Shown here: positions 30,820 to 61,700 of the stretch, piece by piece
Position numbering within the stretch: position 1 is the stretch's first letter
Layout of the letters: each line of letters opens with the position of its first letter
Assembly: GCF_014323565.1 (NCBI RefSeq)
Contig: NZ_CP058669.1
Location: 2,445,501-2,509,500 of the forward strand
DNA: 64,000 bases
Direction: 5' to 3'
DNA from: Hyphobacterium sp. CCMP332
Lineage (GTDB): Bacteria; Pseudomonadota; Alphaproteobacteria; Caulobacterales; Maricaulaceae
Notes under the pieces: model-generated
Database searches by the model: none
The model's input: the letters and a program-made list of their open reading frames with translations, nothing else
Told to the model about the DNA's origin: nothing
Position numbers and translations under genes: made by a program

Positions 30820-33771
30820 ATGAAAAAGTTTCTGCGTAATACCGCCGCCGCTACAGTATTGGCTTTCGCGATCACGCCAATGACATCTGTTGCGGCCTGG
30901 GCCGGGAAAAAGGACGACCAGCAGTCGGCCGAAACGCCAACTTTCCTGTTCGCCTATCGCGGAGACATCAATCCGTTCCGCGGCGATATCAGTCCCTTCC
31001 ATGGCGACATTGATCCCTTCCACGGGGACATCAATCCGTTCCGCGGGGACATCTCTCCCTTCTACGGCGATATTTCACCGTTCTGGGGCGACATCTCGCC
31101 GTTCTGGGGCGACATCAATCCCTTCCACGGCGATATCAACCCCTTCCATGGCGACATCTCTCCGTTCTGGGGCGACATCTCGCCCTTCTATGGCGACATC
31201 GACCCCTTCTATGGTGATATCAATCCTTTCTACGGTGACATCAGCCCGTTCTGGGGCGATATCGGTCCGTTCTGGGGCGACATCAACGCCTTCTGGGGCG
31301 ATATCGACCCCTTCCAGGACACCGCGACGTCCGATTATGCGTCGGTCGCTGCACAGCTCCAGGCCATCTTTGACCGGGCCGAGGACGTCTTTGGCGGCGC
31401 GGTCGCCCATGAAACCGGACAATCGGTGCAAGAGGCCGTTCTGGCCGACCTGCTCGCCCGTTATGGTCTCGACCTGTCCAATCCGGACAGCCTCGCCAAT
31501 ATGGATGCCGCCGACCGCTCGGCCTTCTTCCTCGATTTCTATGATGGGCTGATGGGCTTTACCGGTCTGGACCGTGTCGATCACTGGATGCCGCAGATCA
31601 ACTGGACGCCTGCCCTGTCGCAGGCAGCAGGCGCCGGCAACAATGTAATCGTCGGCCTGCTCGACTTCTCCTTCACCACCGAGGAAGCCCTGAATGTACG
31701 CAACTCCAAAGGTGAGCGCGACTATCTCGGCTTTGCGCACGGCGCGGCCGTGGCGGGTCTGATCAATGCGCCACTGGATGGTGAAGGCGTGATGGGGCTG
31801 GCCCCGAATGCCACGCTCGTCACCTATAATCCGTTCGATGACACCCTCTCGACCAATTTCGACGATGTGCGCGATGGTATCGATGCGCTGCTGACGGGTG
31901 GGGCCCATGTGATCAACATGTCGCTCGGTGTGCCGGGCACGACCTTCTCGCAGGACTGGGCCGATGTGTTCAGCGACCGCAAGATTGCGCGCCGCGCTGG
32001 CGATGCCCTCTTCGTCGTGGCCGCCGGTAATGACGGCTACACGCAGGATTTTGATGTCGACTGGTCCAGCGTGGGCGATGTGTCCAATCTGATCCTCGTC
32101 GGTTCGGTCGATCCGGCGAACAATATCTCCTTCTTCTCCAACCGTCCGGGCGAGGCCTGCTTCACCGTCAATGGTGTGTGTGAAGAGGGCAATCGCCTGA
32201 TGGACCGCTTCCTGGTCGCGCCGGGTGAGCTGATCCTCGTCTCTGATGGCGAGGGCGGTGTGATGCGCCAGTCCGGCACCTCCTTCGCCGCGCCGATGGT
32301 GGCCGGTGCTGCGGCGCTGGTTCAGGGCCGCTGGGGATGGCTGGAATCCAGTGATGTCGCCGATGTGTTGCTGCGCTCGGCCCGCGATCTGGGCGCACCG
32401 GGAACGGATGCTGTCTATGGCCGCGGCCTGCTGGATGTCGGCGCGGCAATGTCGCCGCTCGACCCGGATAACCTCTATATGGTCACCGGCGATCTCAAGC
32501 GCCGCGATGTGGCGGGTGCCGTGCGGACACGGGGCCGTCTCACCTTCTACGCAGCCGACGAGAACAGCGTCGTTCTTTTTGAAGACCTCAACGATACCTT
32601 CCGCGACTTCGTCGTCTCGCTTGACGATTTGACGCTGGACATGAGCGATGACGAGTTGGCCTCGACAGTCAATGCGGAAACCTATCTCCTGGAGCGCAAC
32701 CGCAATGCGGACAGCAACGGCGATGGCACGGCGGATTTCCGTGACACCACCGAATATGCCGCACCTCTGGCCGTCCGTGGCGACTTCCGCATCACAGCGG
32801 TGATGTCCAGCCACGATCCACGCGAAAATATCAGCGATGGCGAATTGCCGGTCCAGATCGGCATCCGCATGAGCGACGATGTATCGGGCCGCGAAATGCG
32901 CTTCGGTCTCGGCAATGGCGCGCTGGCCTTCTCCGGTCAGGACGGCTTCGGTCTCTTCTCCGACCATCGCCCGGAAACCGGCGGCGTCAATCCGGTGCTC
33001 GGCTTTGCCTCGGGCGGTCTCTACGGCATGGCCGGCTATACGCTGGACACCCGAACCCGCCTGAACTTCGGTGTTTCGACCGAGCGCGACGAGGACATGT
33101 ATGTCCTGCCGTATTCCGGCGAGGAACGGACACGTGTCTCCGGCCTGGACGCCTATCAGGCGACGGCCTTTGTCGGCGGGATCGAGCATACGCTTCGTGA
33201 CGGGCTGGAGGTCAATCTCTCCTACACCCTGCTGCGGGAAGACACCGGCTTCCTCGGGGCGCAAGGCACCGGCCCGCTGGACTTCAGCGGCGGTACGATG
33301 ACCGACGCGGTCACGTTCGGAACGTCTGTAGCTCTGCCAATGGCGCTCAACTTCGATGCGTCCGCCACGATGGCCCGCACCCGTGCCGGTGACTTTGACA
33401 GCGACGTTCTGGAATTGTCGCAAGACACACTGTCGACCGCCTTCCAGATGACCATGACCCGCAACGGACTGGTCTCTGAGGGTGACGCGCTGCGCGTCAG
33501 CCTGATCCAGCCCCTGCACATCGAACGCGGTGAGATGCGTTACACTGCAGCCGGTGTGGTGGATCGTGAAAGCGGCACGCTGGATGTCTCCACCCAGACC
33601 TGGCGTCTGGGCGGCGAGCGCCCGCTCTTCGCGGAGGCCATGTATGGTACCTATCTCTTCAGCGGATCGACGGAATTCAGCCTCTATTCGCGGGTGGAAG
33701 TGTCCGGCGACCGCCAGTCAGACGACATCAGCGGCTTCACCGCTGGCGGCCGTCTCCGCTTCGAATTCTAG
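30820..33771 (+). CDS. Subtilisin-type (S8) autotransporter with xGDIxPF heptapeptide repeats
   Basis: A 983-residue secreted protease. The ATG at 30820 is preferred over 30808 because TGGGGGA sits 5 nt upstream. Signal peptide (residues 1-32, ending VAAWAG), a short linker, then exactly 17 heptapeptides of the form [RHYW]GDI[NSDG][P/A]F (residues 47-165). The S8 domain follows: Asp282 in GLLDFS, His307 in AHGAAVAG (normally HGTHVAG), oxyanion Asn in VVAAGND, and Ser488 in SGTSFAAPMVAGAAAL. After a 200-residue passenger stretch, the last 300 residues are strand-rich and end in RLRFEF, typical of an outer-membrane barrel. Probably a self-exporting surface protease. A terminator follows at 33797; a TPR-EAL signalling gene is next. 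Confidence 0.88.
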   Translation: MKKFLRNTAAATVLAFAITPMTSVAAWAGKKDDQQSAETPTFLFAYRGDINPFRGDISPFHGDIDPFHGDINPFRGDISPFYGDISPFWGDISPFWGDINPFHGDINPFHGDISPFWGDISPFYGDIDPFYGDINPFYGDISPFWGDIGPFWGDINAFWGDIDPFQDTATSDYASVAAQLQAIFDRAEDVFGGAVAHETGQSVQEAVLADLLARYGLDLSNPDSLANMDAADRSAFFLDFYDGLMGFTGLDRVDHWMPQINWTPALSQAAGAGNNVIVGLLDFSFTTEEALNVRNSKGERDYLGFAHGAAVAGLINAPLDGEGVMGLAPNATLVTYNPFDDTLSTNFDDVRDGIDALLTGGAHVINMSLGVPGTTFSQDWADVFSDRKIARRAGDALFVVAAGNDGYTQDFDVDWSSVGDVSNLILVGSVDPANNISFFSNRPGEACFTVNGVCEEGNRLMDRFLVAPGELILVSDGEGGVMRQSGTSFAAPMVAGAAALVQGRWGWLESSDVADVLLRSARDLGAPGTDAVYGRGLLDVGAAMSPLDPDNLYMVTGDLKRRDVAGAVRTRGRLTFYAADENSVVLFEDLNDTFRDFVVSLDDLTLDMSDDELASTVNAETYLLERNRNADSNGDGTADFRDTTEYAAPLAVRGDFRITAVMSSHDPRENISDGELPVQIGIRMSDDVSGREMRFGLGNGALAFSGQDGFGLFSDHRPETGGVNPVLGFASGGLYGMAGYTLDTRTRLNFGVSTERDEDMYVLPYSGEERTRVSGLDAYQATAFVGGIEHTLRDGLEVNLSYTLLREDTGFLGAQGTGPLDFSGGTMTDAVTFGTSVALPMALNFDASATMARTRAGDFDSDVLELSQDTLSTAFQMTMTRNGLVSEGDALRVSLIQPLHIERGEMRYTAAGVVDRESGTLDVSTQTWRLGGERPLFAEAMYGTYLFSGSTEFSLYSRVEVSGDRQSDDISGFTAGGRLRFEF
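30958..31314 (+). repeat. 17 tandem 21-bp units coding xGDIxPF
   Basis: Exactly 357 bp (17 x 21). The G-D-I core and F are kept in all units and P in 16 of 17; the first residue alternates among R, H, Y and W, and the residue after I among N, S, D and G. Synonymous differences between units show the peptide, not only the DNA, is being conserved. Confidence 0.95.
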
Positions 33772-33796
33772 GCGCTACGACCTGTGGCTCACCTCG

Positions 33797-33828
33797 CCCC
33801 CTCCCGGTTTCCGGGAGGGGGTTTTTCT
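33797..33828 (+). terminator. Intrinsic terminator of the S8 autotransporter
   Basis: An 11-bp perfect stem CCCCCTCCCGG / CCGGGAGGGGG with TTT loop, followed by TTTTTCTTT, 25 bp after the stop. Confidence 0.93.
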
Positions 33829-33941: not shown

Positions 33942-36533
33942 ATGTCGTGGTGGAAATGGATTTCAGGTGTCTTGCTGGCCCTCGCCCTGATGGCGGGCCC
34001 AGCGAGTTATGCCCAGACCGACCTCCAGGCAGCCTCACCCTATGCCGATGCCATTGAGGCGGCGCGCACCAATATGATGAGCGATCCGCGGGCAGCACTG
34101 GAACATGCCCAGCATGCCGAACAGCTTGTGCCCATGGATTTTGACGGGGCCATGCAGGAAATGGCTCTGGCGTCCGCCGCCTGGCTGCAATCGGAAGCGA
34201 TGACGCGTCTGGGGCGCCCGAACGAGGCCTTGCCCCTCGCCGAACGAGCGCTGGCCTTGCTGGGTGAAAATCCGGCTCCGACCAAGCTCCATGCCGATAC
34301 ATTGCTGTCGATCGGCCGCATTCTGAAACTGACCGGTGAACATGGCGAAGCGCTGGAGATTCTGCAGCAAGCTTTCGATGTATATCTCGCCATCGGGGAA
34401 ACCCGCAGTCAGGCCATCGTTCTGCAATCCATCGGATCCATCTATAATGATGCGCGCCAGTATGACCGGGCGATCGAGTATTTCGCCGACGCGGTCGAGC
34501 GCCACCGCGATACCAATCTGGACCTCGCCACCTTCAACAATCTCGGCAATGCCCATACCGCGCTTGAGGATTACCCGCAGGCGCTAAGTTACTACACGCA
34601 AGCGCTCTCCGCGGCGGAAGAAATGGGCAGTGGCATGTTGCAGGCGCGCATCCTGAACAATGTGGCTTCCCTGAATATTGCCAATGGCGACTGGCAAGCG
34701 GCCGATACCGCGGTGGATCAGGCCTTTGCAGTCGCCGGTGAGAATTCGGGCGCCGAGTGGTCGCGTTTCCTGTGGGGTGTTCGGGCCCAGGCTGCGCTGG
34801 GCCGCGAGGAGTATGCGGCGGCGCGCACCGGTATTGAACACGTTTTTGACGGTGTGGAGATTTCCGAAACCAATCATCACTTTACCGATTTTCACGACTC
34901 CGCTGCGCGGATCTATGAAGCGCTGGGCGAGTATGAGCTCGCCATATCGCATTTGCGCGCCTTCAAGCGCCTTGAGGATGATGGCCGGGAATTTGCCGCC
35001 AACGCCAACTTCGCCCTGATTGGGGCCCAGTTCGACTTTGCCGCCCAGGACCTTCAGATCCAGCAATTGCACGCCGAAGGCCTCGCCCGCGACCTCGCCC
35101 TGGCCCAGAGCGAAGCCCGGCTGCGCATGCTCATTGCCGTCGGTGCCGGGACGCTCATGCTGGTCCTCCTGATCGGCATGGTCATGGCCATGCTCAACTT
35201 GCGGGCGCGGGCACGGCAGATGCGCGAACAGCTGAATATCGACCCCGAAACCGGCCTGCCCACCCGTCATGCGCTCGTCAGACAACGCAACCGCGATGTC
35301 CTCGATGACGGCTCGAACACCTATGTCGCCGCGGTCAATCTCAATCGCGCCTCTCATATCGAAAGCCTTCTCGGTTTTGCGAATTTTGTGGAATTGCAGA
35401 AGCAGCTCGGGGCCCGTCTGGGCGAGATTGACGGCGTGACATTCGTTTCCCTGATTGGCCACGGTGAGTTCGGCATCCAGCTCGATACCGATGACGAGCT
35501 GGTTGTCGAAGATGAAATCAACGAATTGCTTCGCGCATTCGGACGCCCCATCACGATTGACGGTGTCGATGTGGATGTCAGCGCCACGATTGGCCTGGAC
35601 AATGCCGCGGATAGCGAAATGGCCGTCCGCAATGCCATGATTGGCGTCAGCCAGGCCGAGGATCAGTCCACGCCACATGCGCTCTATAACGAACGCCGCT
35701 TCGGGGATCCGACCGAAAATCTGAGCCTGATGACCCGGATGATCGACGCGACAAAAGCGGGCCATATGCAGATGCACTACCAGCCGAAGCTGGATTTGCG
35801 GCGCGGCGCCTTCACGTCCGCCGAAGCGCTCTGCCGGTGGAATGATCCGGAGCGCGGTTATATCAGCCCGGATGCCTTCATTCCGCAGGCCGAGGGCACC
35901 GGAAAAATCCGTGAGTTGACGGAATGGACCATTCGGCAGGCAATGGCCGACAAGGCCCATCTGGCACAGAACGGCCATGATATATCGATCGCCGTGAATA
36001 TTTCCGGCGTTCTGGTAGCGGATCCGAAATTCGGTCAGCGGATTCTTGAAATTGTCGGCTTTGGTGCCAACGGGCTGATCTTCGAGATCACCGAAACCGC
36101 AATGATGTCCAATCCGGACAAGGCGATGCACAATCTTGACCGCTGGGTGGATGCCGGCATCAAGCTGGCGATTGATGATTATGGCACCGGCTTTTCGTCT
36201 CTGGCCTATCTCAAACGCCTGCCGTGTGAGGAATTGAAAATCGATCAGGTCTTTGTCAAAGGCGCGCATACGTCTGCCAAGGACCGGACGCTTCTCAAGT
36301 CGACTATCGATCTGGCCCATAATCTGGGCATGTCGGTCACCGCCGAGGGCGTTGAGGATGATGACATACTGATGGCTTTGCGGGTCATGGGATGTGATGT
36401 GGCCCAGGGCTATGGCCTGTCGAAAGCGTTACCGCTGGATCAGCTCCGGCAATTCCTTGATCAGGCGCGCTCCGAGCCTGCCCGGAATGTGCCCGGTAGC
36501 AGCGGATCGATAACCCAGTTCCGGGGCCGCTAG
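33942..36533 (+). CDS. TPR - transmembrane - degenerate GGDEF - EAL protein
   Basis: An 863-residue protein. A signal peptide or first helix (MSWWKWISGVLLALALMAGP) is followed by a periplasmic TPR array (about residues 35-380), one transmembrane helix (about 395-418), a GGDEF-like domain whose signature is degraded to GHGEF, and an EAL domain (about 605-850). The EAL side keeps EALCRW near 628, NISG, FEITET, DDYGTGFSSL, LKIDQVFVK and AEGVED, so c-di-GMP phosphodiesterase activity is likely, with the GGDEF part probably regulatory. The RBS GGAGACAGCG precedes the ATG. Its stop shares bases with the convergent mipA-like gene. The TPRs could sense envelope or secreted partners. Confidence 0.9.
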   Translation: MSWWKWISGVLLALALMAGPASYAQTDLQAASPYADAIEAARTNMMSDPRAALEHAQHAEQLVPMDFDGAMQEMALASAAWLQSEAMTRLGRPNEALPLAERALALLGENPAPTKLHADTLLSIGRILKLTGEHGEALEILQQAFDVYLAIGETRSQAIVLQSIGSIYNDARQYDRAIEYFADAVERHRDTNLDLATFNNLGNAHTALEDYPQALSYYTQALSAAEEMGSGMLQARILNNVASLNIANGDWQAADTAVDQAFAVAGENSGAEWSRFLWGVRAQAALGREEYAAARTGIEHVFDGVEISETNHHFTDFHDSAARIYEALGEYELAISHLRAFKRLEDDGREFAANANFALIGAQFDFAAQDLQIQQLHAEGLARDLALAQSEARLRMLIAVGAGTLMLVLLIGMVMAMLNLRARARQMREQLNIDPETGLPTRHALVRQRNRDVLDDGSNTYVAAVNLNRASHIESLLGFANFVELQKQLGARLGEIDGVTFVSLIGHGEFGIQLDTDDELVVEDEINELLRAFGRPITIDGVDVDVSATIGLDNAADSEMAVRNAMIGVSQAEDQSTPHALYNERRFGDPTENLSLMTRMIDATKAGHMQMHYQPKLDLRRGAFTSAEALCRWNDPERGYISPDAFIPQAEGTGKIRELTEWTIRQAMADKAHLAQNGHDISIAVNISGVLVADPKFGQRILEIVGFGANGLIFEITETAMMSNPDKAMHNLDRWVDAGIKLAIDDYGTGFSSLAYLKRLPCEELKIDQVFVKGAHTSAKDRTLLKSTIDLAHNLGMSVTAEGVEDDDILMALRVMGCDVAQGYGLSKALPLDQLRQFLDQARSEPARNVPGSSGSITQFRGR

Positions 36534-49420: not shown

Positions 49421-49722
49421 TAGGTGCTGACGGGGAACACGGCCGTAGAATCTCCTGAATGCCCCGGTCAGCGATAAAGGGTTGATTGCCTATAGTGAAT
49501 AGCGAATGGGACACGTCCTATTAAGCAATACGCTCGTCCATCAAATAGGCGTCAAACCCAACGAATTGCGGGGGTGCAAGTGAGTGCAGCACGTGCCCTG
49601 CCACGCGAAGTCGCTTGCCGAGTGCTTTAGAAGGCCGCATAGCAACGGTTCAGTTCGGTCGGCACGGCGCGCTGATGTCATGCACAGTAACCTGTTTGTG
49701 CTACATTAAGGGACTGAATTGC
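49421..49722. other. Gap between IS and giant gene
   Basis: About 300 bp with no convincing gene; presumably carries the promoter of the giant gene. A TTAAGGGA element lies about 10 nt before its ATG and serves as a ribosome-binding site. No clear -35/-10 pair was singled out. Confidence 0.4.
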
Positions 49723-52700
49723 ATGTCATTTTCATTTCGAGCACTAGCGCTGGTTGGTTTTTCTGGATTGGCTTTGGGCTTAGGTGCGCTGTTCGCGCCG
49801 GCCGCCGAGGCACAGGATGCGACACCGCCAACGATCTCGTCTATTGTACGCCAGGCCCCTGCCACATCGCCAACTAACGCCGACAGCGTGACTTGGCGTT
49901 TAACGTTTGATGAGGCGGTGCAGACCGTCACGCCGGGCATGTTCACCTCGACAGGCTCAACCGGCACGCTGGCTGTCACTAATAATTCAAGCACGCAGAC
50001 CGACGTCACGCTCTCGGGTGGCGACATGGCTAGCCTTAACGGTGTGGTGACGCTGGACGCATTGGTCGGTCCGCCCGCTCTGACCAATGTCGCCAATATC
50101 ACCGATAATGCGACGCTCAAACTGAATGGTGCCGCTTCCGTCACGACAGGCGTAGTGGGCGGGACCACTTTCCTTTTCGCTGCCGGGGCTATTGATGACG
50201 GCGTCAGCGTTTTCTCGGTCGCGGCGAATGGCAGTCTGACCAATGTCGCGAATGTCACCGATGATGCGACGCTCGAACTCGATGGTGCATATTCCGTCAC
50301 GACAGCCGTGGTGGGAGGGATTACTTACCTCTTCGCTGCCGGGGTATTTGATGACGGCGTCAGCGTTTTCTCGGTCGCGGCGAATGGCAGTCTCACCAAT
50401 GTCGCGAATGTCACCGATGATGCGACGCTCGAACTGGCTGGTTCCCGATCCGTCACGACAGCCGTGGTGGGAGGGATTACCTACCTTTTCGCTGCCGGGT
50501 CTTTTGATGCCGGCGTGAGCGTTTTCTCGGTCGCGGCAGATGGCAGTCTCACCAATATCACCAATGTTCCCGATGATGCGACGCTCCAACTCGATGGTGC
50601 CATCTCTGTCACGACAAGCATGGTGGGAGGGATTACCTACCTCTTCGCCGCCGGGCAGAATGATAGCGGCGTGAGCGTTTTCTCGGTCGAGCCCAATGCG
50701 AGCGGGACGGTCGACCTAACCAATGTCGCCAATGTCACCGATGATGATGATGCGACGTTCGAACTGCGTGCTGTGCGATCCGTCACGACAGCCGTGGTCG
50801 GAGGGACCACCTACCTCTTCGCCGCCGGACAGAATGATGACGGGGTGAGCGTTTTCTCGGTCGAGCCCAATGCGAGCGGGACGGTCGACCTAACCAATGT
50901 CGCCAATGTCACCGATAATGCGACGCTGGAGCTAGATGATGCCCGTTCCCTCACGACAGCCGTGGTCGGAGGGATCACCCACCTCTTCGCTGCCGGGGCT
51001 ATTGATAACGGCGTCAGCTGGTTCGCTGTCGCGGATGGTGGCAGTCTGACCAATGTCGCGAATATCACCGATGACGGTTCCGGCGGTGCGCTCGAACTGG
51101 GTGGCGCTGCTTCCGTCACGACAGCCGCAGTGGGAGGGACGACCTACCTCTTCGCTGCCGGGTATGAAGATGACGGGGTTAGCGCTTTTACCTTCGGAAC
51201 CGAGCGCATACAGGATCTCGCGGGAAATTCACTTGCCAATGCGACACCCACCGGCACGAATGATGCGACTTTTATCATCGATCACATTCCGCCTGACGTC
51301 TTCCTCTCAGGTCCAGCCGGGCCTGTTTATGGAGATTTTGCGCTGGATGTGAGTTTCAGTTCAGACGTCAGCGTCTATGATGACACCGACCTGACTGTCG
51401 TCAACGGCACGATTTCCGACTTTACACCGGGTGCCAATTCAACGGCGTCGATGACGATCACCCCGACCGCTGATGGTTCAGTAACGGTCGATTTTGCCGC
51501 GGATCGTGTCGAGGACGCGGCGGGCAATGGCAATACGGCGGCGACGCAATATTTGGTAACGGCTGACATCACCCCGCCGGAAGTGGTGTTGTCGAGCGCC
51601 GTCGGCACGCACACCAATGCGGCTTTCTTCGTGGTGCTGGCGACCTTTACTGAGGACATGACGGGCGTCGCAATCGACGACTTTACGGTCACCAACGGGG
51701 TCGCCTCCTTGTTCCAGACCGACAACGCCAAACAATTTTCGGTGACAATCACGCCGTCCGGCCAGGGCTCGGTTGTCATCAGCATTGGAGCCGACACCGC
51801 GAACGGGACGAACGGAAATCCAAATCTGGCGTCCAACGGGTTATCGGTGATCTATGACACGGTCCTACCGGTCGCGCCGACGGACCTTTACATGCACCTC
51901 TCCGATGATGGCGGGGCCGGCAACGGTGATGGCGGGGCCGGCAATTCTGATGGAATTACCAGGGTTCTGGCACCGCGGATTATCGGCACACACATTGAAA
52001 CCGACGCGACGATCACACTGACATCATCACTTGATGGTGTGGTGGGTTCGACTGTCGCTAACATCAGCACCGCGGATGAGCGCGGCTTCAGTGGCAATTG
52101 GATGGTGACGCCGTCAAACCTGACACCCGGTACGCATTCGATTACGGCGACGGCGACCGACCTGGCGGGCAATACCGGCCCGGCCTCGGCACCCTTCATC
52201 ATTGTTGTTGATACGACGCCGCCCAATGCCTTGGCGTTCAGCCGTGTGACGCCCGCTGGTCAGGTGACCAATGCCGACACGTTGGTCTTCAGTGCGGTCT
52301 TCGATGAGCCGGTGATCTATGTCGGCTTCGACGTGAATGGCAGCACGGCAACAGCCATCACAACCGGGTCCGGTGATACCTATACCGTGACGGTCTCCGG
52401 CGGAGACCTGGCCACGTTGAACGGCACGGTCGATGTCGATCTGGTATCGACCGATTCATTCTGGAGTGCGCTGACCGATGCGGCTGGCAATCAGATCGTC
52501 AGCCTCACACCAGCGTCTGAAGAAACCTATACGCTGGACAACATAGCGCCGACAGTCGCCATCACCGGCCCGAGCGGCCCAGTGGCTGGGGCCTTTACGG
52601 CAACGGTGACATTCTCATCCGCGACCGACAATTTCGCGATTGGGGACCTGACTGTTGTCAACGGAACGCTCTCGAACTTCCAGTCAGTCAGCACCACGGT

Positions 52701-55700
52701 CTTCACCGCGACAATCACACCGATTGCCGAAGGGAGTGTCACCATTGATGTTCCGCAAGGCGGTGCCGCGGACGCCGCCGGCAATGGCAATACGGCTTCC
52801 CCACAATTCTCGGTCGCCTATGACGCAGCAGCGCCGGGCCTTGTTTCGATCGAACGATTTAATCCGATCAGTTCGCCCACTGGCGCAACAAGTGTGACCT
52901 GGCGCGTGACATTCAACGAGCTAGTATCAAATGTAACGGCGGACGATTTTACCATCACAGGCACGACCGGAACGATCAGTGTCAACAACGTGTCGAGTAC
53001 AGTAACGGATGTGACCGTATCCGGCGGTGATATGGCGACTGTAGTCGCGACCCTTACTTTGGGCTTTAGTGCCTGTCCGGACATTGTTGACGCGGCCGGA
53101 CGGTCGCTGAGTAGTACCACCCCATCGGGCGTGAATGATCGCACCTATGTGAAGATCGTTGACGCGACCGCGCCGCAAGTCGCCTCAATTGAACGGGCAA
53201 CGCCCAACGCTGCCATCACCATTGCTGAGCGCTTCGTCTGGCGCGTGTCGTTTGATGAAGCGGTCAGCAATGTCGACGCTGCCGACTTCGTCGTTTCCGG
53301 GACGACAGCAACAATCACGTCCGTGACACCCATGTCCGACCGTATCTTTGACATTACTGTCAGCGGCGGCAATTTGGCCACCTACAATGGCACTATTGTC
53401 CTGTCTTTCGCCGCCGCCCAAAATATCGTCGATCTCGTCGGCAACACACTGGCCGTTACAACGCCGACAGGGACCAATGATTTCTCGGTTCGGCTCATTA
53501 CGGCTGCGGAGCCTTTTGGCGATGAATTCCTCGTCAACACCACCACAGCGGCAAATCAGAATGTCCCGGCCATCGCTGGCGGGATAGACGGCCAGTCACT
53601 CGTTCTCTGGACCGATTACAGCGAAACGGGCGATGACACTTCCGGGTCGGCCATTCGCGGCCAGATGTATGGGCCAAGTGGTGCGCCCGCCGGCTCTGAA
53701 TTTGTTGTCAATTCGACGACGGCAAGTAGCCAGTACTGGCCGCAAGCTGTTGCCCTGACCGGCGGCGGCTATGCGGCCGCCTGGTACGATTATGGCGGCA
53801 ATGCCTCTGATCTTGATGGTTCAGTTCGCGCGCGCGTCCTCGACGCCAATGGCGCGCCGATCGCTGTGGATTTTCAGGTCAATACATCCATCTCAGGCGG
53901 CCAGTCTCTGGCCGGGATTACGGCGCTCTCGGGCGGCGGATTTGCCATCATCTGGCAGCAAAGTATCGGCACAGGTCCGTCAACCTATACGGCAACCGTA
54001 TACGTGCAGCAATTCGATGCGGGTGGCTCGCCGCTGGGTAGCGAGACCGTTGTCGTCAGTAAAGACAATCACGGTTTTGCCAATGGCTCTGACATCACCA
54101 GCCTGCCCGGTGGCGGATTTGTCGTGGCCTGGATTGACGAAGACGAGGCGACCGTCCAGCCCAGCTCGACCTTTACGCTGGATGCCCGGCATTTCGATTC
54201 CGCGAGCATACCCGACGCCCCGTTCAACATTGTTGCGTCGAGCACTGACAGTATCGAAGATGTTAGTATCGCGGCACTGCCCGGAGGGGGCTATGCCCTT
54301 GCCTGGGAGGGCGCGAGCACCATCACCGCCCGGGTCTTTGACGACGCAGGGGCAACCGCCGGCTCTGAATTGACCGTTGCAACCAGTGCTCAGTTCGGCG
54401 TTTTCGACCCGCAAGTGTCGTCGCTTGCGGGTGGCGGGTTCGTCATCGCATGGGACGGACGGCATTCGAGTGGTGATGGCCGGGATATTCTCGCACAGAG
54501 TTATCTCGCCGATGGGACTGCGGTTGGCGGAGAATTGTTGGTCAACTCAACGACGGCCGGCAATCAGTCTAACCCAACTCTTGCCGCGCATGCTGACGGG
54601 GGCTTCCTGTTTGGCTGGACCGACAAGGCGGCGACGGGGGGCGATCTGTCCGGCAATGCCGTTCGGGCACAACGTTTCGGACCCGATGTCACGGCCCCGG
54701 CTCTGCTTGCCTTTTCGCGCCAGTCGCCCACGGCCGCGCTGACCCAGGCAGATTCGCTGGTTTTCCGTGCGACCTTTGACGAGCCGGTTGGCATGGTGTC
54801 GGTCGATGATTTTGCCGTGAATGGCACCACCACAGCTATCGTCTCGGCGGTGTCGGCCTCTTCAGGGCAGGATATCGACATCACGGTCTCGGGCGGCGAT
54901 CTGGCCAGCTTCACGGGCACTGTCGGTCTCAATCTATCGAACAGCGGAAACATTTCCGACATAGCTGGAAATGGTTTGCCAGGGACAGAACCCACGACGG
55001 ACGAGAGTTTCACGCTCGATAATGCCGCGCCATCCGGTTACGCAGTCGCGGTCGATCAGCCTTTCGTCAACGCGGCCAATGATGACGCCATATCGCTTAC
55101 ATTCACCGGTCTCGAAATCGGGGCTAGTTACGACTATGCGCTGTCGTCCAGCCAGCCCCATTGGGCGTCACCCATTACCGGATCAGCAACGGCATCCTCA
55201 TCTAGTGAAGCCGTCTCCCTAACAGTCTATCCTGATACCGCGTCCGCATTGCCGGACGGCACGCTGACCGCATCGCTCGCGCTGACCGATTCTGCCGGCA
55301 ATGTCGGCGTGACGGTGACCGCGACTGTCCTGAAAGACACGACGGGACCCGGTTGGACCTCGGTTAATATCCAGCCCGACCCGGTCAATTTGAGCAATGA
55401 GAGCGCCGTAGGGCTTGATGTGTCTGTGCTGGAGACCGGGACTACATATACCTATTCCGTAACCTCCAGTGGCGGCGGAGCGCCGATTACCGGCAGCGGC
55501 AGTGTGACGTCCACGGACTTCACGATTCCCGGCATTGACTTGTCGGGGCTAGCAGACGGCCAGCTGACGGCCTCCATCACCATGACAGATGCCGCTGGAA
55601 ACACCGGCTTTACTTATACCGATACGGCGACCAAGGACACAGTTCCGCCCTCCGGTGTGACCATGGTCGCTGACTTTCCGGCCATCAACGCGGGCAATAT

Positions 55701-58700
55701 CGACACGGCCCTTATTCTGGTCACCGGAGCTGACGATGCCGATTTGTCAACGGTCGTGATTTCGTCTTCGGGCGGCGGCACACCCAGCACTCTCGGGCCA
55801 TTTGCCTCGACAGGCGGACGTGTTGCGATCCCGTTTGGCGCGGCCGCCGGTCTCCCGGATGGCAATATCACATTTGCCTATCAATCCACTGATCCGTCTG
55901 GAAATGAAGGGCCCACGACCAATGCGGTTGTGCCAAAAGACACGGTGGCGCCTTCAGGCTATAGCTTCACCATTGATCAGGACCCGATCAATCTCGGTAA
56001 TGTCGGATCGGTTTCAGTGTCATTTGCGGGATTTGAACCGGGTACGACCTATAGTTATTCGCTGTCATCCAGTGGCGGCGGAGCACCTATTACTGGCTCC
56101 GGAACAGCCGTTCTCGCCGCAAGCACTTTGCCGGGCACGGATGCATCCGGACTTGCGGATGGCACGATTACGGCGTCGATCACGCTGACCGATGCGGCTG
56201 GAAACACCAGCGCTGCCGCAACCGATACCGCGACCAAGGAAACGGTCGCGCCAACGCTTCAGATCACCGGCCCTGCGGGAATAGTTGGCGGCCCCTTTGA
56301 TGTGACGTTTACCTTCTCCGAGGATGTGACCGGATTTGAACTGAGTGACATTGTCGTTACCCGCAACGGCTCAGGCTCAGGCAGCGGCGGCGTGTTCGTT
56401 TCCGGTGCGGCGACGAATTTTCAGACCATTAACGCGCGCGAATATACCGCAACCATCACCCCGACCAGCAGCGAATACTACATGACCAGTGTCGGCCCCG
56501 GGCGTGCCGTGGACGCGGCCGGCAACGGGAACTCAATCTCGGCTTCCAATCCGTTTGCGGTTCTGGCTGATTTGGCGCCTCCGAGTGTTTCGGTTAGCAC
56601 CACAACGCCGCCGCTCCCGGGCAGTATCAGCCATGCCAATGGACCATTCAACGTTACCGTTTCCTTCAACGAGGATGTGGCAGGGTTTACCATCGACGAT
56701 ATTGTTGTGACCCGCCGCGAAATCAGTTCAGCTGCGGAGTCGGTCGCGCCCAATACGCTTTCGGATTTCCAGGTCGTCAGTGCGCGCGTCTATACGGCGA
56801 TCCTGACGCCGCCAGAGCCCTCTTATTCTACCGTCTATTATGTTGATATTCCCGTTGACGCCGCAACGGACGTTGCGGGAAACGGGAATAGCGCAACGTC
56901 ACTTGCCGACCATAGCCGATTTCTTCGTATCGTCGATAACGATCACCCGACACTAATCATTTCCCGAATTGGTGGTGCCGTGACGGCTCTGAATGGGCCA
57001 TTCCAGATATTCATCCGCCCGCCGGGTACCGTTGGCGTAACAGGTTTGACGATTGACGACGTGATCGTCAGCAATGCGACGACGTCTGACTTCGAACCCC
57101 AGGGCGGCGGTGGCGCCCTGCTGATGGTAACGCCGATCGCGGAAGGTCCTGTCACGGTCGATGTCCCGGCCAACTCGGTTATTGATTCCTTCTTGAATGG
57201 CAATATCGCGGCGCCGCAGTTCGTTTTGCAATACGATCTCACTCCGCCATCCGTCGTGATCTCGGGCCCACCAGGGCCCATATCTGGTGCCTTTACGGCG
57301 ACGTTCACCTTCTCTGAAGATGCCACCGGTTTTGCCGTTGGTGACATCACGGTTGGCAATGGTGCGGCGTCCAACGTTCAGGCGACAAGCGCGTCTATCT
57401 ACACCGCGACGATCACACCGGTGGCCGATGGCGCTGTGACTGTTGATCTAGCAGGAGCTGTGACAACAGACATCGCAGGCAATGACAACTCGGCGGCCAC
57501 CCAGTTCACTGTCACCAATGACGAGGCGGCTCCTACACTTGATATCAGTGGACCTGCGGGCCCTGTGAGTGGAGTCTTCACGGCGATTTTTACCTTCAAT
57601 GAGGACGTCACGGGCTTTGCGCTCGGCGACATCTCGGTAGGCAATGGCGCGGCGTCCGACGTCCAGGCGACAAGTGCCAGCGTATATACCGCGACCATCA
57701 CACCCGCTGCCGATGGCGCTGTGACTTTGGATGTGGCTGGAGCTGCGGCTATCGATAGCGCTACCAATGGCAATACGGCCGCCACGCAATTCTCCGTCAC
57801 CAATGACCAGATTGCGCCGACCGGTTATACATTCGAGATTGATCAGGATCCGATTACGCAGGCCAATGTCGGCGCTGTATCGCTGACATTCGCGGGATTC
57901 GAGTTGGGCTCAACCTACAGCTATTCCCTGTCGTCCAGCGGCGGCGGAACGCCCTTTACAGGGGACGGCGCGGTCGCAATTGCAGGCGGAACCCTGCCGC
58001 CAATCGATGCATCAACATTGCCGGACGGAATTATTACTGCGTCCGTGACGCTGACCGATGCCGCTGGCAATGCAGGCCAGGCAGTCACAGGCGGCGCGAC
58101 GAAGGATGCGACCGGACCGTCATTACTGGTCACCGGCCCTGCTGGGCCGGTCAGCGGCGCATTCGACGTCGTTATGGTCTTCTCGGATCCCATCCAGGGT
58201 CTGGCCTTTGTCGATGATCCGTTCGCGATCACCAATGGATCATTTGGGGATAGTGAGCTTGTCGATGCATTGACCGCTCGACAGCAGGTCCTTCCTGATG
58301 CCGATGGCCTCGTTGTCATCGACTTCAATGCCGATGCGGTAGCGGATGCGCTGGGCAATCTGAATACGGGCGCAACGCTGTTCTCGGTGTCGAATGACCA
58401 GACTTCCCCGGGGCTGACCATCACCGGACCTTCGGTTCCGGTCAACACGTCTGCGCTCGTGACGTTTACATTCGACGAAGATGTGACCGGGTTCACAATT
58501 GATGATCTGAACATCAGCGGCGGCATCGCATCGAATTTCGCCGTGACGTCCGCTACCGTCTATACGGCCCTGATTGGTTTGGACCCCAACGCTGCAGCCG
58601 ATCAGGAAGATGGGGTTGATCGTCCTCTGGTTGGCGCGAGTGGATATCGGATCGACGTAAGCGTAAATGCTGACACCCTCAATGATGTCGCTGGAAATTC

Positions 58701-61700
58701 CAATGCGGCATCCGGGTCTTTCCCGGTATATTATGACACGGTTCCACCTGTTGCCCGTATCAGCGCGCCCAGCGCGTCCAACGGCCCCTTCACGGTCAAC
58801 TACACCTTCGAGGAGTCTGTCACAGGCTTTACTGCCGACGATGTTATTGTGGGCAATGGCACGCTCTCCGGTTTTACCCAGACCTATGACTGCGGGGACC
58901 CGCTGGGCGTTATTTTGGGCAGCTGTGAAATTGCCGCCGTGTTTGAAGCTGAAATCACGCCTCTGCTGGAGGGCCAAGTCACCATTGATGTACCCAACAA
59001 TGCCTTTGTCGATGTCGCAGGAAATTCGGGGAGCGCCAGCGTCCAGCGAATCGTTTCCTACGATACTGTTTCTCCCACGACCGCCATTACCGGGCCGACG
59101 GGTCCTGCGAGCGGCGCCTTCACGGCGACGTTTACTTTCAATGAGAATGTATCGAATTTTGTGCTGGCTGATATCACAGTCGGCAATGGCGTAGCATCGA
59201 ACTTTCAGGCCCCATCGGCCAGTTTATATAACGGGCATTTCACACCTACAGATCTTTTCACCGCCACGATCACACCGGCGGCGGATGGCGCGGTCACCCT
59301 TGATGTTGCTGGCTCTGTCGCCACCGATGCAGCGGGCAATGACAACACGGCGGCGACGCAGTTCTCCATCACCAATGACGAGACAGCTCCAACACTGGCC
59401 ATCACCGGTCCAACCGGTCCTGTCAGTGGGGCCTTCACAGCGACCTTCACCTTTGATGAGGACGTGACGGATTTCGTGGTGGGTGACATCACGGTGGGTA
59501 ATGGTGCAGCCTCTGCCTTCGATGACAGTGCTGCTCCGATTTATACGGCCACGATTACGCCAGCGGCGGATGGCGCGGTCACCCTTGATGTTGCTGGCTC
59601 TGTCGCCACCGATGCAGCGGGCAATGACAACACGGCGGCGACGCAGTTCTCCATCACCAATGACGAGACAGCGCCAACGCTGGCGATCACCGGACCTGCT
59701 GGTCCTGTCAGTGGGGCCTTCACAGCGACCTTCACCTTTGATGAGGACGTGACGGATTTCGTGGTCGGTGACATCACGGTGGGTAATGGCGCAGCCTCTG
59801 CCTTCGATGACAGTGCCGCTCCGGTCTACACCGCCACCATCACGCCTGCCGCTGATGGCGCAGTGACGCTGGATGTTGCTGGCTCTGTCGCAACAGACGC
59901 CGCTGGCAATGACAACACGGCGGCCACCCAGTTCTCCATCACCAATGACGAGACGGCTCCAACCCTGGCCATCACGGGGCCGACAGGTCCGGTGTCTGGT
60001 GCGTTTACGGCGACCTTCACCTTCGATGAGGATGTGACGGACTTCGTGGTGGGCGACATCAGTGTGGGTAATGGCGCAGCCTCTGCCTTTGATGACAGTG
60101 CCGCTCCGATCTACACGGCCACGATCACACCGGCAGCGGATGGCGCAGTGACGCTGGATGTTGCTGGCTCTGTCGCAACAGACGCCGCTGGCAATGACAA
60201 CACGGCGGCGACGCAGTTCTCTGTCACGAATGACGAGACGGCACCTACGCTCGCGATTACAGGCCCAACGGGTCCTGTATCGGGTGCGTTTACCGCAACC
60301 TTCACCTTTGATGAGGACGTGACGGATTTCGTGGTCGGTGACATCACGGTGGGTAATGGCGCAGCCTCTGCCTTCGATGACAGTGCCGCTCCGGTCTACA
60401 CCGCCACCATCACGCCTGCCGCTGATGGCGCAGTGACGCTGGATGTGGCTGGCTCTGTCGCAACGGACGCGGCGGGCAATGACAATGCGGCGGCGACGCA
60501 GTTCTCCATCACCAATGACGAGACAGCGCCAACGCTGGCGATCACCGGACCTGCTGGTCCTGTCAGTGGGGCCTTCACAGCGACCTTCACCTTTGATGAG
60601 GACGTGACGGATTTCGTGGTCGGTGACATCACGGTGGGTAATGGCGCAGCCTCTGCCTTCGATGACAGTGCCGCTCCGGTCTACACCGCCACCATCACGC
60701 CTGCCGCTGATGGCGCAGTGACGCTGGATGTTGCTGGCTCTGTCGCAACAGACGCCGCTGGCAATGACAACACGGCGGCCACCCAGTTCTCCATCACCAA
60801 TGACGAGACAGCGCCAACGCTGGCGATCACCGGACCTGCTGGTCCTGTCAGTGGGGCCTTCACAGCGACCTTCACCTTTGATGAGGACGTGACGGATTTC
60901 GTGGTCGGTGACATCACGGTGGGTAATGGCGCAGCCTCTGCCTTCGATGACAGTGCCGCTCCGGTCTACACCGCAACGATTACGCCTGCGGCCGATGGAG
61001 CTGTGACCGTTGATGTGCCGGGTTCTGTTGCAACCGATGGCGCAGGCAATGACAACACAGCGGCGACGCAGTTCTCGGTGACCAATGACGAGACCGCCCC
61101 GACGGTGGCTTCCATCACGCGCCAGACACCGTCTGTGTCTCCGACGGATGCAGACAGCCTGGTTTGGCGGGTGACCTTCTCTGAGACAGTGGTCAATGCC
61201 GGGGCGGCAGATTTCTCTGTGACCGGCACAACGGCAACGGTCACGGATGTCACGGCCATTGATGGGGCACGCTATGACGTCACGGCATCAGGTGGAGATC
61301 TGGCTAATCTCAATGCAACCGTCACACTGTCCGTTGCGGCGGCTCAGGATATCGCGGATGAAGCGGGTAATACGCTGAGCGATACGACACCCACCGGTAC
61401 CGATGAACGCGCCTGGTCTGTCATCAATGACGCGGATGCACCGACAGTTGCGTCTATCGCGCGCAACACCCCGTCTACAGAACTGACCAATGCGGACAGC
61501 CTGGTCTGGCTGGTGAGTTTCTCTGAAAACGTGACGGATATTGGTACCGGTGACTTTGCCGTATCGGGCACAACCGGCACGGTGACATCTGTCTCGCCTC
61601 AGGCGGTCAACCTTCCGCCAAGTGTGACGGGCAATGGCTATAGCGCTCCGATGGTTGTGTCCTCCTCCGCCTTCACAGTCACCGCTTCGGGCGGAGACCT

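Follow-up and report, generated by a model that had tools for sequence, protein, structure and literature searches.

Why should a subtilisin-like protease carry 17 tandem copies of a seven-residue unit ahead of its catalytic domain? The question arises in a 64,000-nucleotide stretch of the Hyphobacterium sp. CCMP332 genome (contig NZ_CP058669.1, positions 2,445,501 to 2,509,500; hereafter the window), where the gene for a predicted peptidase family S8 protease with such a heptad array is followed by a gene for a predicted membrane sensor that combines a tetratricopeptide repeat (TPR) half with an EAL output domain (Table 1). We put at slightly better than even the chance that the two genes form a signalling pair in which the array serves as the ligand and is read by the TPR of the sensor.

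A script run on the 987-residue reading of the protease finds exactly 17 matches to xGDIxxF, gapless and spaced by seven residues, and the 21-bp array was also picked up independently by Tandem Repeats Finder (TRF). The first-pass annotation of this DNA had described 17 back-to-back xGDIxPF heptads between a signal peptide and an S8 domain. The number and the arrangement hold, with a signal-peptide-like start on one side and an intact S8 domain on the other. G-D-I and F are present in 17 of 17 units, and the proline is the part that has to be relaxed, position 6 being P in 16 units and A in one (INAF). The residues numbered 47-165 in that annotation are residues 51-169 here, counted from ATG 30820 instead of ATG 30808; the former is the likelier start because GGGGGA lies directly 5′ of it. 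The unit pattern GGCGAYATCNNNCCNTTC has nine matches in the 2.69-Mb single-contig genome, all inside the protease gene, and its reversed control has none in the same genome. A two-unit DNA pattern of the array has no match in viral_contigs.

The heptad array is not peculiar to this genome, because 74 of 77 relatives in which the protein could be read have at least three in-register heptads. These relatives come from the best 80 of 111 confirmed stretches in one scan of named genomes, which represent 79 distinct loci in genera that include Maricaulis, Marinicauda, Oceanicaulis, Euryhalocaulis, Parvularcula, Aquisalinus, Sphingomonas, Sphingomicrobium, Novosphingobium, Erythrobacter, Altererythrobacter, Phenylobacterium and Caulobacter, among others. 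The closest named relative among the matches listed is Hyphobacterium indicum, at 90% identity. Two of the three exceptions (L073 and L094) begin at contig edges, and the third (L126) is a Novosphingobium variant with a 14-residue period. The number of units varies widely, reaching 28 when counted by motif. Across 925 in-register heptads, position 1 is W in 34% and Y in 33% (Y or W 67%), position 2 is G in 97%, position 3 is D in 65% and N in 14%, position 4 is I in 78%, L in 11% and V in 7% (96% together), position 5 is variable, position 6 is P in 73% and A in 21% (94% together) and position 7 is F in 90%; the percentages are biased towards G at position 2, a hydrophobic residue at position 4 and an aromatic one at position 7, which the register-finding motif demands, and heptads between motif matches were counted whatever their letters.

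Some arrays depart from this pattern in their periodicity. In L081, L103, L115, L126 and L133, two kinds of heptad alternate with a 14-residue period (for example YGDISPF with WGDISPF, or VGHIRTF with xGEIxPS), an alternation that may reflect a two-unit binding register. In L065, L086 and L118 the units within an array are near identical. We also considered whether array fragments in one genome (G091) are small proteins in their own right and rejected this, as they run out at contig ends, just as the contig with the sensor does, and look like assembly breaks.

Selection on the array was examined both among units and between species. Compared with each other at positions 2-7 (136 unit pairs), the units of the window array differ by a mean of 0.60 at synonymous sites (pS) and 0.11 at nonsynonymous sites (pN). 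Synonymous divergence among the units and between species rules out a recent expansion or a product of slippage. Against three relatives of the Hyphobacterium group (L011, L012 and L014, in this order throughout), pN is 0.021, 0.011 and 0.081 in the array versus 0.048, 0.070 and 0.164 in the S8 domain. The corresponding Ka/Ks values are 0.01, 0.01 and 0.06 versus 0.07, 0.10 and 0.23, where the high Ks of the array (1.06 to 1.43) makes the pN contrast the safer statement. The array is the most constrained region of the protease in these three comparisons, and in the alignment its individual units mostly retain their own variable residues. Homogenised pheromone copies in the style of α-factor were rejected as a model for the units of this genome, which differ from one another and largely preserve those differences in close relatives. 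Absence of the array from orthologues, or a lack of constraint on it, had been named at first pass as grounds against a specific role; neither is what we find, though unit number does vary.

What accompanies an array of this kind? When all reading frames of at least 90 residues were compared in 70 loci of at least 12 kb, one neighbour family besides the protease proved to be widely conserved, namely that of the sensor gene that follows the protease gene in the window. Two other neighbour clusters consist of response-regulator-like matches in 17 loci and of an apparent antisense frame in 40. The target was identified in 68 of the 70 loci, 65 of which have room downstream and are testable. A homologue of the TPR half lies within 10 kb of the array protease in 62 of these 65 loci (counts uncorrected for kinship), and in 56 it is directly downstream on the same strand. 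The open-frame gaps between protease and sensor range from −101 to 238 bp with a median of 62, and the linked loci span Maricaulaceae, Parvularculaceae, Sphingomonadaceae, Erythrobacteraceae and Caulobacteraceae. Elsewhere the sensor is directly upstream on the same strand (L084, L117), about 0.9 and 2.1 kb upstream (L092, L105), downstream on the other strand (L098) or head to head with the protease (L122). By comparison, none of 20 array-less S8 genes of the same family has the sensor beside it at E values up to 1e-3; one chance-level TPR match appears at E 0.1, and for three of the 20 loci the contig is short (5.7 to 10.1 kb). These control genes were found by the S8 domain alone and all 20 frames were read: none has an array, and each contains at most three scattered matches to a looser heptad pattern.

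The two genes also occur together across genomes. Among 137 genomes of the family, a near-full-length relative of the protease is present in 27 (matches with E below 1e-250) and the sensor, detected at E up to 1e-20 by a profile built on its TPR half, in 30. All 27 protease carriers have the sensor, 107 genomes have neither gene and three have the sensor alone (Fisher p 1.4e-25, uncorrected for kinship). These three are G091, in which sensor and arrays stop at contig ends, G094, and G131 with a diverged homologue. Both genes are absent from G007 (same genus, 99% complete) and from G011 (100% complete), two genomes whose close kin have both, as joint losses would predict. In 385 genomes of the class (an even draw that includes the genome studied here), the sensor is found in six and the protease in four at E up to 1e-60. 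G148 has the sensor without the protease, G252 has a sensor at a contig start and G492 has both genes adjacent. Two similar array proteases in G281 (L163 and L164), one on a chromosome-size contig and one on a contig of 300 kb, are each cut off by a contig end, and sensors begin at or near the starts of the same two contigs; adjacency of protease and sensor is likely there. The orphan sensor gene of G094 (L155, 3992-6578) has transposase-like frames nearby and no array protease, and is a candidate for recent loss of the ligand gene.

The sensors linked to array proteases keep one half and exchange the other. TPR matches are present in all 57 partners, the window's included, whereas the outputs are EAL in 32, HisKA with HATPase in 24 and GGDEF only in one (L100), with GGDEF present in 20 overall. 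A signal-peptide-like start, the TPR, a long helix and a transmembrane (TM) segment are constant and the output is swapped, which singles out the TPR half as the conserved reader. A quick tree of this half requires at least three changes among the three output classes, one of them for L100; for the EAL label its starred branches require two changes, and the same holds for the kinase label. The window sensor contains EAL, DDYGTGFSSL and KIDQVF motifs, which we take to be functional motifs of EAL domains, and its EAL domain is a predicted cyclic di-GMP (c-di-GMP) phosphodiesterase.

The TPR half has a conserved groove, whose conserved residues are Asn, Asp, Glu, Arg and Trp. Groove residues include W51, E55, D89, N169, N170 and N210 (A3 numbering). 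Low-entropy polar residues occupy 7 of 42 groove positions versus 3 of 119 other surface positions (Fisher p 0.003), where TPR positions were assigned by hand and the entropy threshold (under 0.6) was of our own choosing. In three sensors (L106, L115 and L132) Glu replaces Asn at A3 position 173, in the groove of the fourth TPR, and is paired with RTF-type arrays, a possible compensating change seen in one clade only. Sequence-profile matches of the TPR are led by designed consensus TPRs, followed by O-GlcNAc transferase, LGN/Pins and kinesin light chain. In a Foldseek search with the TPR model, an LGN–peptide complex ranks first (LGN entries 4wne, 4wnd and 5a7d). Mostly LGN and consensus TPR entries stand above the Rap receptors, which appear at ranks 29, 34 and 47 (6t3h, 4gyo and 4i1a), and the rank-34 structure contains its CSF peptide. 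The TPR should face the periplasm, judging from the signal-peptide-like start of the sensor and its single TM-like segment, which has basic residues after it.

If the array is read by this groove, the two might be expected to change together. For 56 of the 57 pairs, array residue profiles were set against distances on the trees of four domains; L073, which is cut at a contig edge, was left out. Given the other domains, the array covaries with the TPR, which is encoded by a separate gene (partial r 0.22, p 0.027), but not with the S8 domain (−0.09) or the C-terminal domain (−0.06) of its own chain. After thinning to 44 pairs the array–TPR value is 0.217 (p 0.043), and it is 0.39 within EAL pairs (p 0.002) and 0.24 within kinase pairs (p 0.029). 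Column by column, groove columns are above other TPR columns (p 0.03), their lead over S8 columns is less clear (p 0.08), and the highest value for any one column belongs to S8 (0.57 versus 0.54); we retain the column-wise result as weak support. The covariation of array and TPR is suggestive.

How might such a pair work? The protease with its N-terminal array would be exported through the signal peptide, and the periplasmic TPR superhelix of an inner-membrane receptor would read the whole array, or fragments of it, in its concave groove. The state of the TPR would then be relayed to the cytoplasmic output, which would be an EAL c-di-GMP phosphodiesterase here and, in other lineages, either a histidine kinase or a GGDEF protein. 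We infer the array to be the sensor's ligand, and likewise the membrane topology, direct array–TPR binding and a change in output driven by it. The sensor could read unexported protease in the periplasm and so report export, or it could read the mature array held in the envelope. Alternatively, the S8 domain of the same or a neighbouring molecule might cut the array behind -I-x-P-F and release heptapeptides or short multimers for the sensor to read; on this hypothesis the receptor would report protease export or activity. In favour of such cutting, the best-kept heptad positions coincide with the P4, P2 and P1 sites used by subtilisins. Peptide signalling of a Gram-negative kind, in which a surface or secreted subtilase cuts its own tandem heptapeptides and a periplasmic TPR receptor with interchangeable outputs reads them, is in our judgement doubtful. 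If true, it would be a trans-envelope counterpart of Gram-positive TPR/peptide systems, with c-di-GMP hydrolysis, c-di-GMP synthesis and histidine kinases as outputs.

Several observations weigh against the array as the ligand of the sensor. AlphaFold2, run with a 25-row alignment, models the array as disordered, with a predicted local distance difference test score (pLDDT) of about 25 over most of it and helix only over the last three units. The adjacent helical domain covaries with the array (partial r 0.36, p 0.001) more strongly than the TPR does, and when five long-branch rows are dropped as well as thinning the pairs, the array–TPR value falls to 0.12 (p 0.13). The fold matches of the TPR show its fold and say little about its ligand, as TPR folds are widely shared. 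The linkage counts include related genomes, and in three of the 65 testable loci (L074, L081 and L114) the flanks contain no sensor; by record name, L074 and L081 are second copies of the array in genomes whose other copy (L075, L093) does have the sensor. Conversely, there are sensors without a detected protease in G094, G148 and, in diverged form, G131. The strong terminator-like hairpin between the two genes of the window suggests separate or attenuated transcription here. Finally, if the protease were a true autotransporter, the array would end up outside the cell and the TPR in the periplasm.

The AlphaFold2 model also bears on two proposals about the array itself. A repeating turn with an exposed face, as imagined at first pass, is unsupported by it, and a folded solenoid was rejected, as a pLDDT of about 25 for most of the array gives no evidence of a fold.

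It is possible, though in our estimate unlikely, that sensor and protease cooperate and the TPR reads the protease body, the helical domain, or peptides cut from other envelope proteins, the array serving export, folding or inhibition. Linkage and co-occurrence fit this equally well, as does the stronger covariation of the helical domain with the array. However, array-less S8 proteins lack such a neighbour (0 of 20), though they differ in other regions too, and it is the array that is most constrained, with no covariation of S8 with it beyond that of the other domains. We think it improbable that the array is a chain of subtilisin-type sites, a propeptide or decoy substrate (a tandem pseudo-inhibitor) trimmed during export, with the sensor linked through incidental co-regulation. 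The best-kept positions of the 925 heptads besides G2, namely 4, 6 and 7, would be P4, P2 and P1 of a cut after F, and the catalytic residues are invariant in 57 of 57 proteins. Suc-AAPF-pNA is widely used as a subtilisin substrate and the P4 pocket of Savinase and BPN′ is large and hydrophobic (PMC3168465), and PDB entry 1bh6 is a subtilisin with Ala-Pro-Phe chloromethyl ketone. A single site would suffice for this purpose, however, and G2 is also 97% kept though it would be at P6 or P2′. The fit to this protease is by analogy with subtilisin, and the tie of the sensor to the array and its swapped outputs would be left unexplained.

A passive role for the array, as a spacer or stalk holding the protease out from the cell, would agree with the variable unit number and with a disordered array. 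We consider it very improbable, given that array Ka/Ks (0.01-0.06) is below that of the catalytic domain in all three comparisons, that units mostly keep their individual identity among close relatives and that the tie to the sensor gene is strong. Equally hard to credit is binding of an extracellular ligand (polysaccharide, metal or host surface) through the aromatic residues, independent of the sensor. The Y or W at position 1 and the D at position 3 are what such a role might call for, but no Pfam carbohydrate-binding repeat was found in the window protein (E up to 1) or in 25 orthologues (E up to 0.1), and the sensor would again be unexplained. The first-pass annotation had guessed at a binding array, a pro-region or a stalk: the linked TPR sensor makes the first the best supported, a stalk is hard to reconcile with stronger constraint on the array than on S8, and a pro-region or substrate is possible insofar as P4, P2 and P1 suit subtilisin. 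The sensor gene, which alters what the array is likely to mean, lies beyond the coordinates of that annotation.

By domain score and by its predicted Asp/His/Ser triad and oxyanion Asn, the protease belongs to peptidase family S8. The window protein matches PF00082 with E 2.4e-33 and 116.1 bits against a gathering score of 21.8, and the domain is also matched in 25 of 25 orthologues. D286, H311 and S492 of the triad and the oxyanion N408 are identical in 57 of 57 aligned proteins, D286 sitting just ahead of the Pfam match. The N-terminus has typical n- and h-regions, as judged from the sequence. On the opposite strand, an 814-aa open frame (31075-33519) runs antisense to the protease gene. Read in reverse, the array again forms a repeat, which draws spurious protein matches; the antisense matches to the array region are this reverse reading, most of them with stops, and were disregarded.

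Table 1. Features of the array-bearing protease gene and its partner sensor gene (window positions)
Feature	Position	Strand	Details
Array-bearing S8 protease gene	30820..33771	+	983 aa from ATG 30820; 987 aa from ATG 30808; Pfam PF00082
Signal-peptide-like N-terminus (MKKFLRNTAAATVLAFAITPMTSVAAWAG)	30820..30906	+	Read from sequence, inferred
17 tandem heptads xGDIxxF	30958..31314	+	Residues 51-169 of the 987-aa reading; script, TRF, Ka/Ks
Helical domain between array and protease	31315..31593	+	Residues 170-262; AlphaFold2 helices; covaries with array
S8 (subtilase) domain	31732..32427	+	Pfam PF00082, residues 309-540
C-terminal beta-rich region	32458..33768	+	Residues 551-987; barrel-like but unproven; AlphaFold2
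Intrinsic-terminator-like hairpin between genes	33796..33822	+	12 pairs, 10 G-C, T-rich tail
Partner sensor gene	33942..36533	+	863 aa: signal-peptide-like start, TPR, long helix, TM-like helix, degenerate GGDEF-like stretch (no Pfam match), EAL
Conserved TPR, stalk and TM half of sensor	34032..35231	+	AlphaFold2 pLDDT 94; TPR domain at sensor residues 31-330
EAL domain (output) of sensor	35745..36425	+	PF00563, residues 602-828, E 2.6e-67

The label of autotransporter given to the protease at first pass is not confirmed. About 440 residues follow the S8 domain, beta-rich in their later part and ending in Phe, and AlphaFold2 places many long beta strands between residues 682 and 985. However, the Pfam beta-domain (PF03797) has no match in 25 orthologues at E up to 0.1, and residues 640-987 of the window protease have no PDB sequence match at E up to 10. 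In fold searches with the protease model (Foldseek, VIA-align) the rows shown are filled by subtilisins, which match the S8 domain. The protease resembles the S8 autotransporter proteases EprS and fusolisin in its signal-peptide-like start, S8 domain and long C-terminal region; it differs from them in having no recognised autotransporter beta-domain and in having the heptad array and a TPR-sensor partner. The NCBIfam models for EprS (31.8 bits against a cut-off of 1700) and fusolisin (14.3 against 999) match over part of S8 only, and the top match, a mycosin model, is also far below its cut-off. Two array proteases of genome G456 (L158, 4977-6882; L159, 5681-7640) end soon after S8 without most of the beta region, and no beta region was detected downstream of either. 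The L158 protease nevertheless has the sensor gene 121 bp upstream, so that the link between protease and sensor does not depend on the beta region in that genome. A further repeat protein is encoded elsewhere in the window, where a 4713-aa frame (49615-63756, forward strand) resembles a giant adhesin; it contains 17 Ig-like stretches of the Big_12 type, and its tandem repeats include units of 285 and 156 bp.

The proposed pair of array and sensor has partial counterparts in known systems. RRNPP receptors are Gram-positive cytoplasmic proteins that need peptide import, mostly with an N-terminal helix-turn-helix or Rap helical domain. Their TPR domain reads short signalling peptides (PMC7206700). 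The likeness to this group (Rap, Rgg, NprR, PlcR and PrgX) is a TPR superhelix with a groove, Rap being among the fold matches of the sensor TPR; it is one of fold and groove, drawn here from genes and models. Unlike these receptors, the sensor has a signal-peptide-like start, a TM-like helix and a C-terminal EAL, GGDEF or kinase output, and its candidate ligand is fused to a protease. LGN/Pins, the best structural match of the sensor TPR (4wne, 4wnd and 5a7d, solved with partner peptides), is an animal cell-polarity protein that shares only the fold and the groove logic with it. LapD is an inner-membrane GGDEF-EAL protein with a periplasmic domain, tied to the envelope protease LapG. LapG is a periplasmic cysteine protease, and the periplasmic domain of LapD is not a TPR and binds the protease itself, whereas here we find an S8 protease, a TPR, a heptad array and interchangeable outputs. 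In the yeast α-factor precursor, tandem signal units are cut by the subtilisin-family protease Kex2. Those are separate proteins with spacers between the units, whereas the units here are gapless and fused to the protease, and their cutting is hypothetical. In literature that leaves out most subscription journals, the array motif strings returned no paper on these proteins, and among the papers listed for combined terms no title or abstract opening describes the protease–sensor pair.

The proximity of array and sensor genes in most relatives suggests an undescribed repeat-and-receptor pair in which TPR-based peptide reading would have moved to the periplasm, with a tandem candidate ligand carried by a protease. 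Genome annotation has made TPR sensors with kinase or c-di-GMP outputs a familiar sight, yet to our knowledge hardly any of them has a known ligand. Here the genome context offers a candidate for a whole subfamily of TPR sensors, a conserved heptad array encoded next door, and brings the receptor–ligand question within reach of synthetic seven-residue peptides. For receptor evolution, the exchange of outputs beneath an unchanged sensor amounts to a natural experiment. If the array is indeed what the sensor reads, protease export or activity would be linked to c-di-GMP and two-component signalling across several alphaproteobacterial families.

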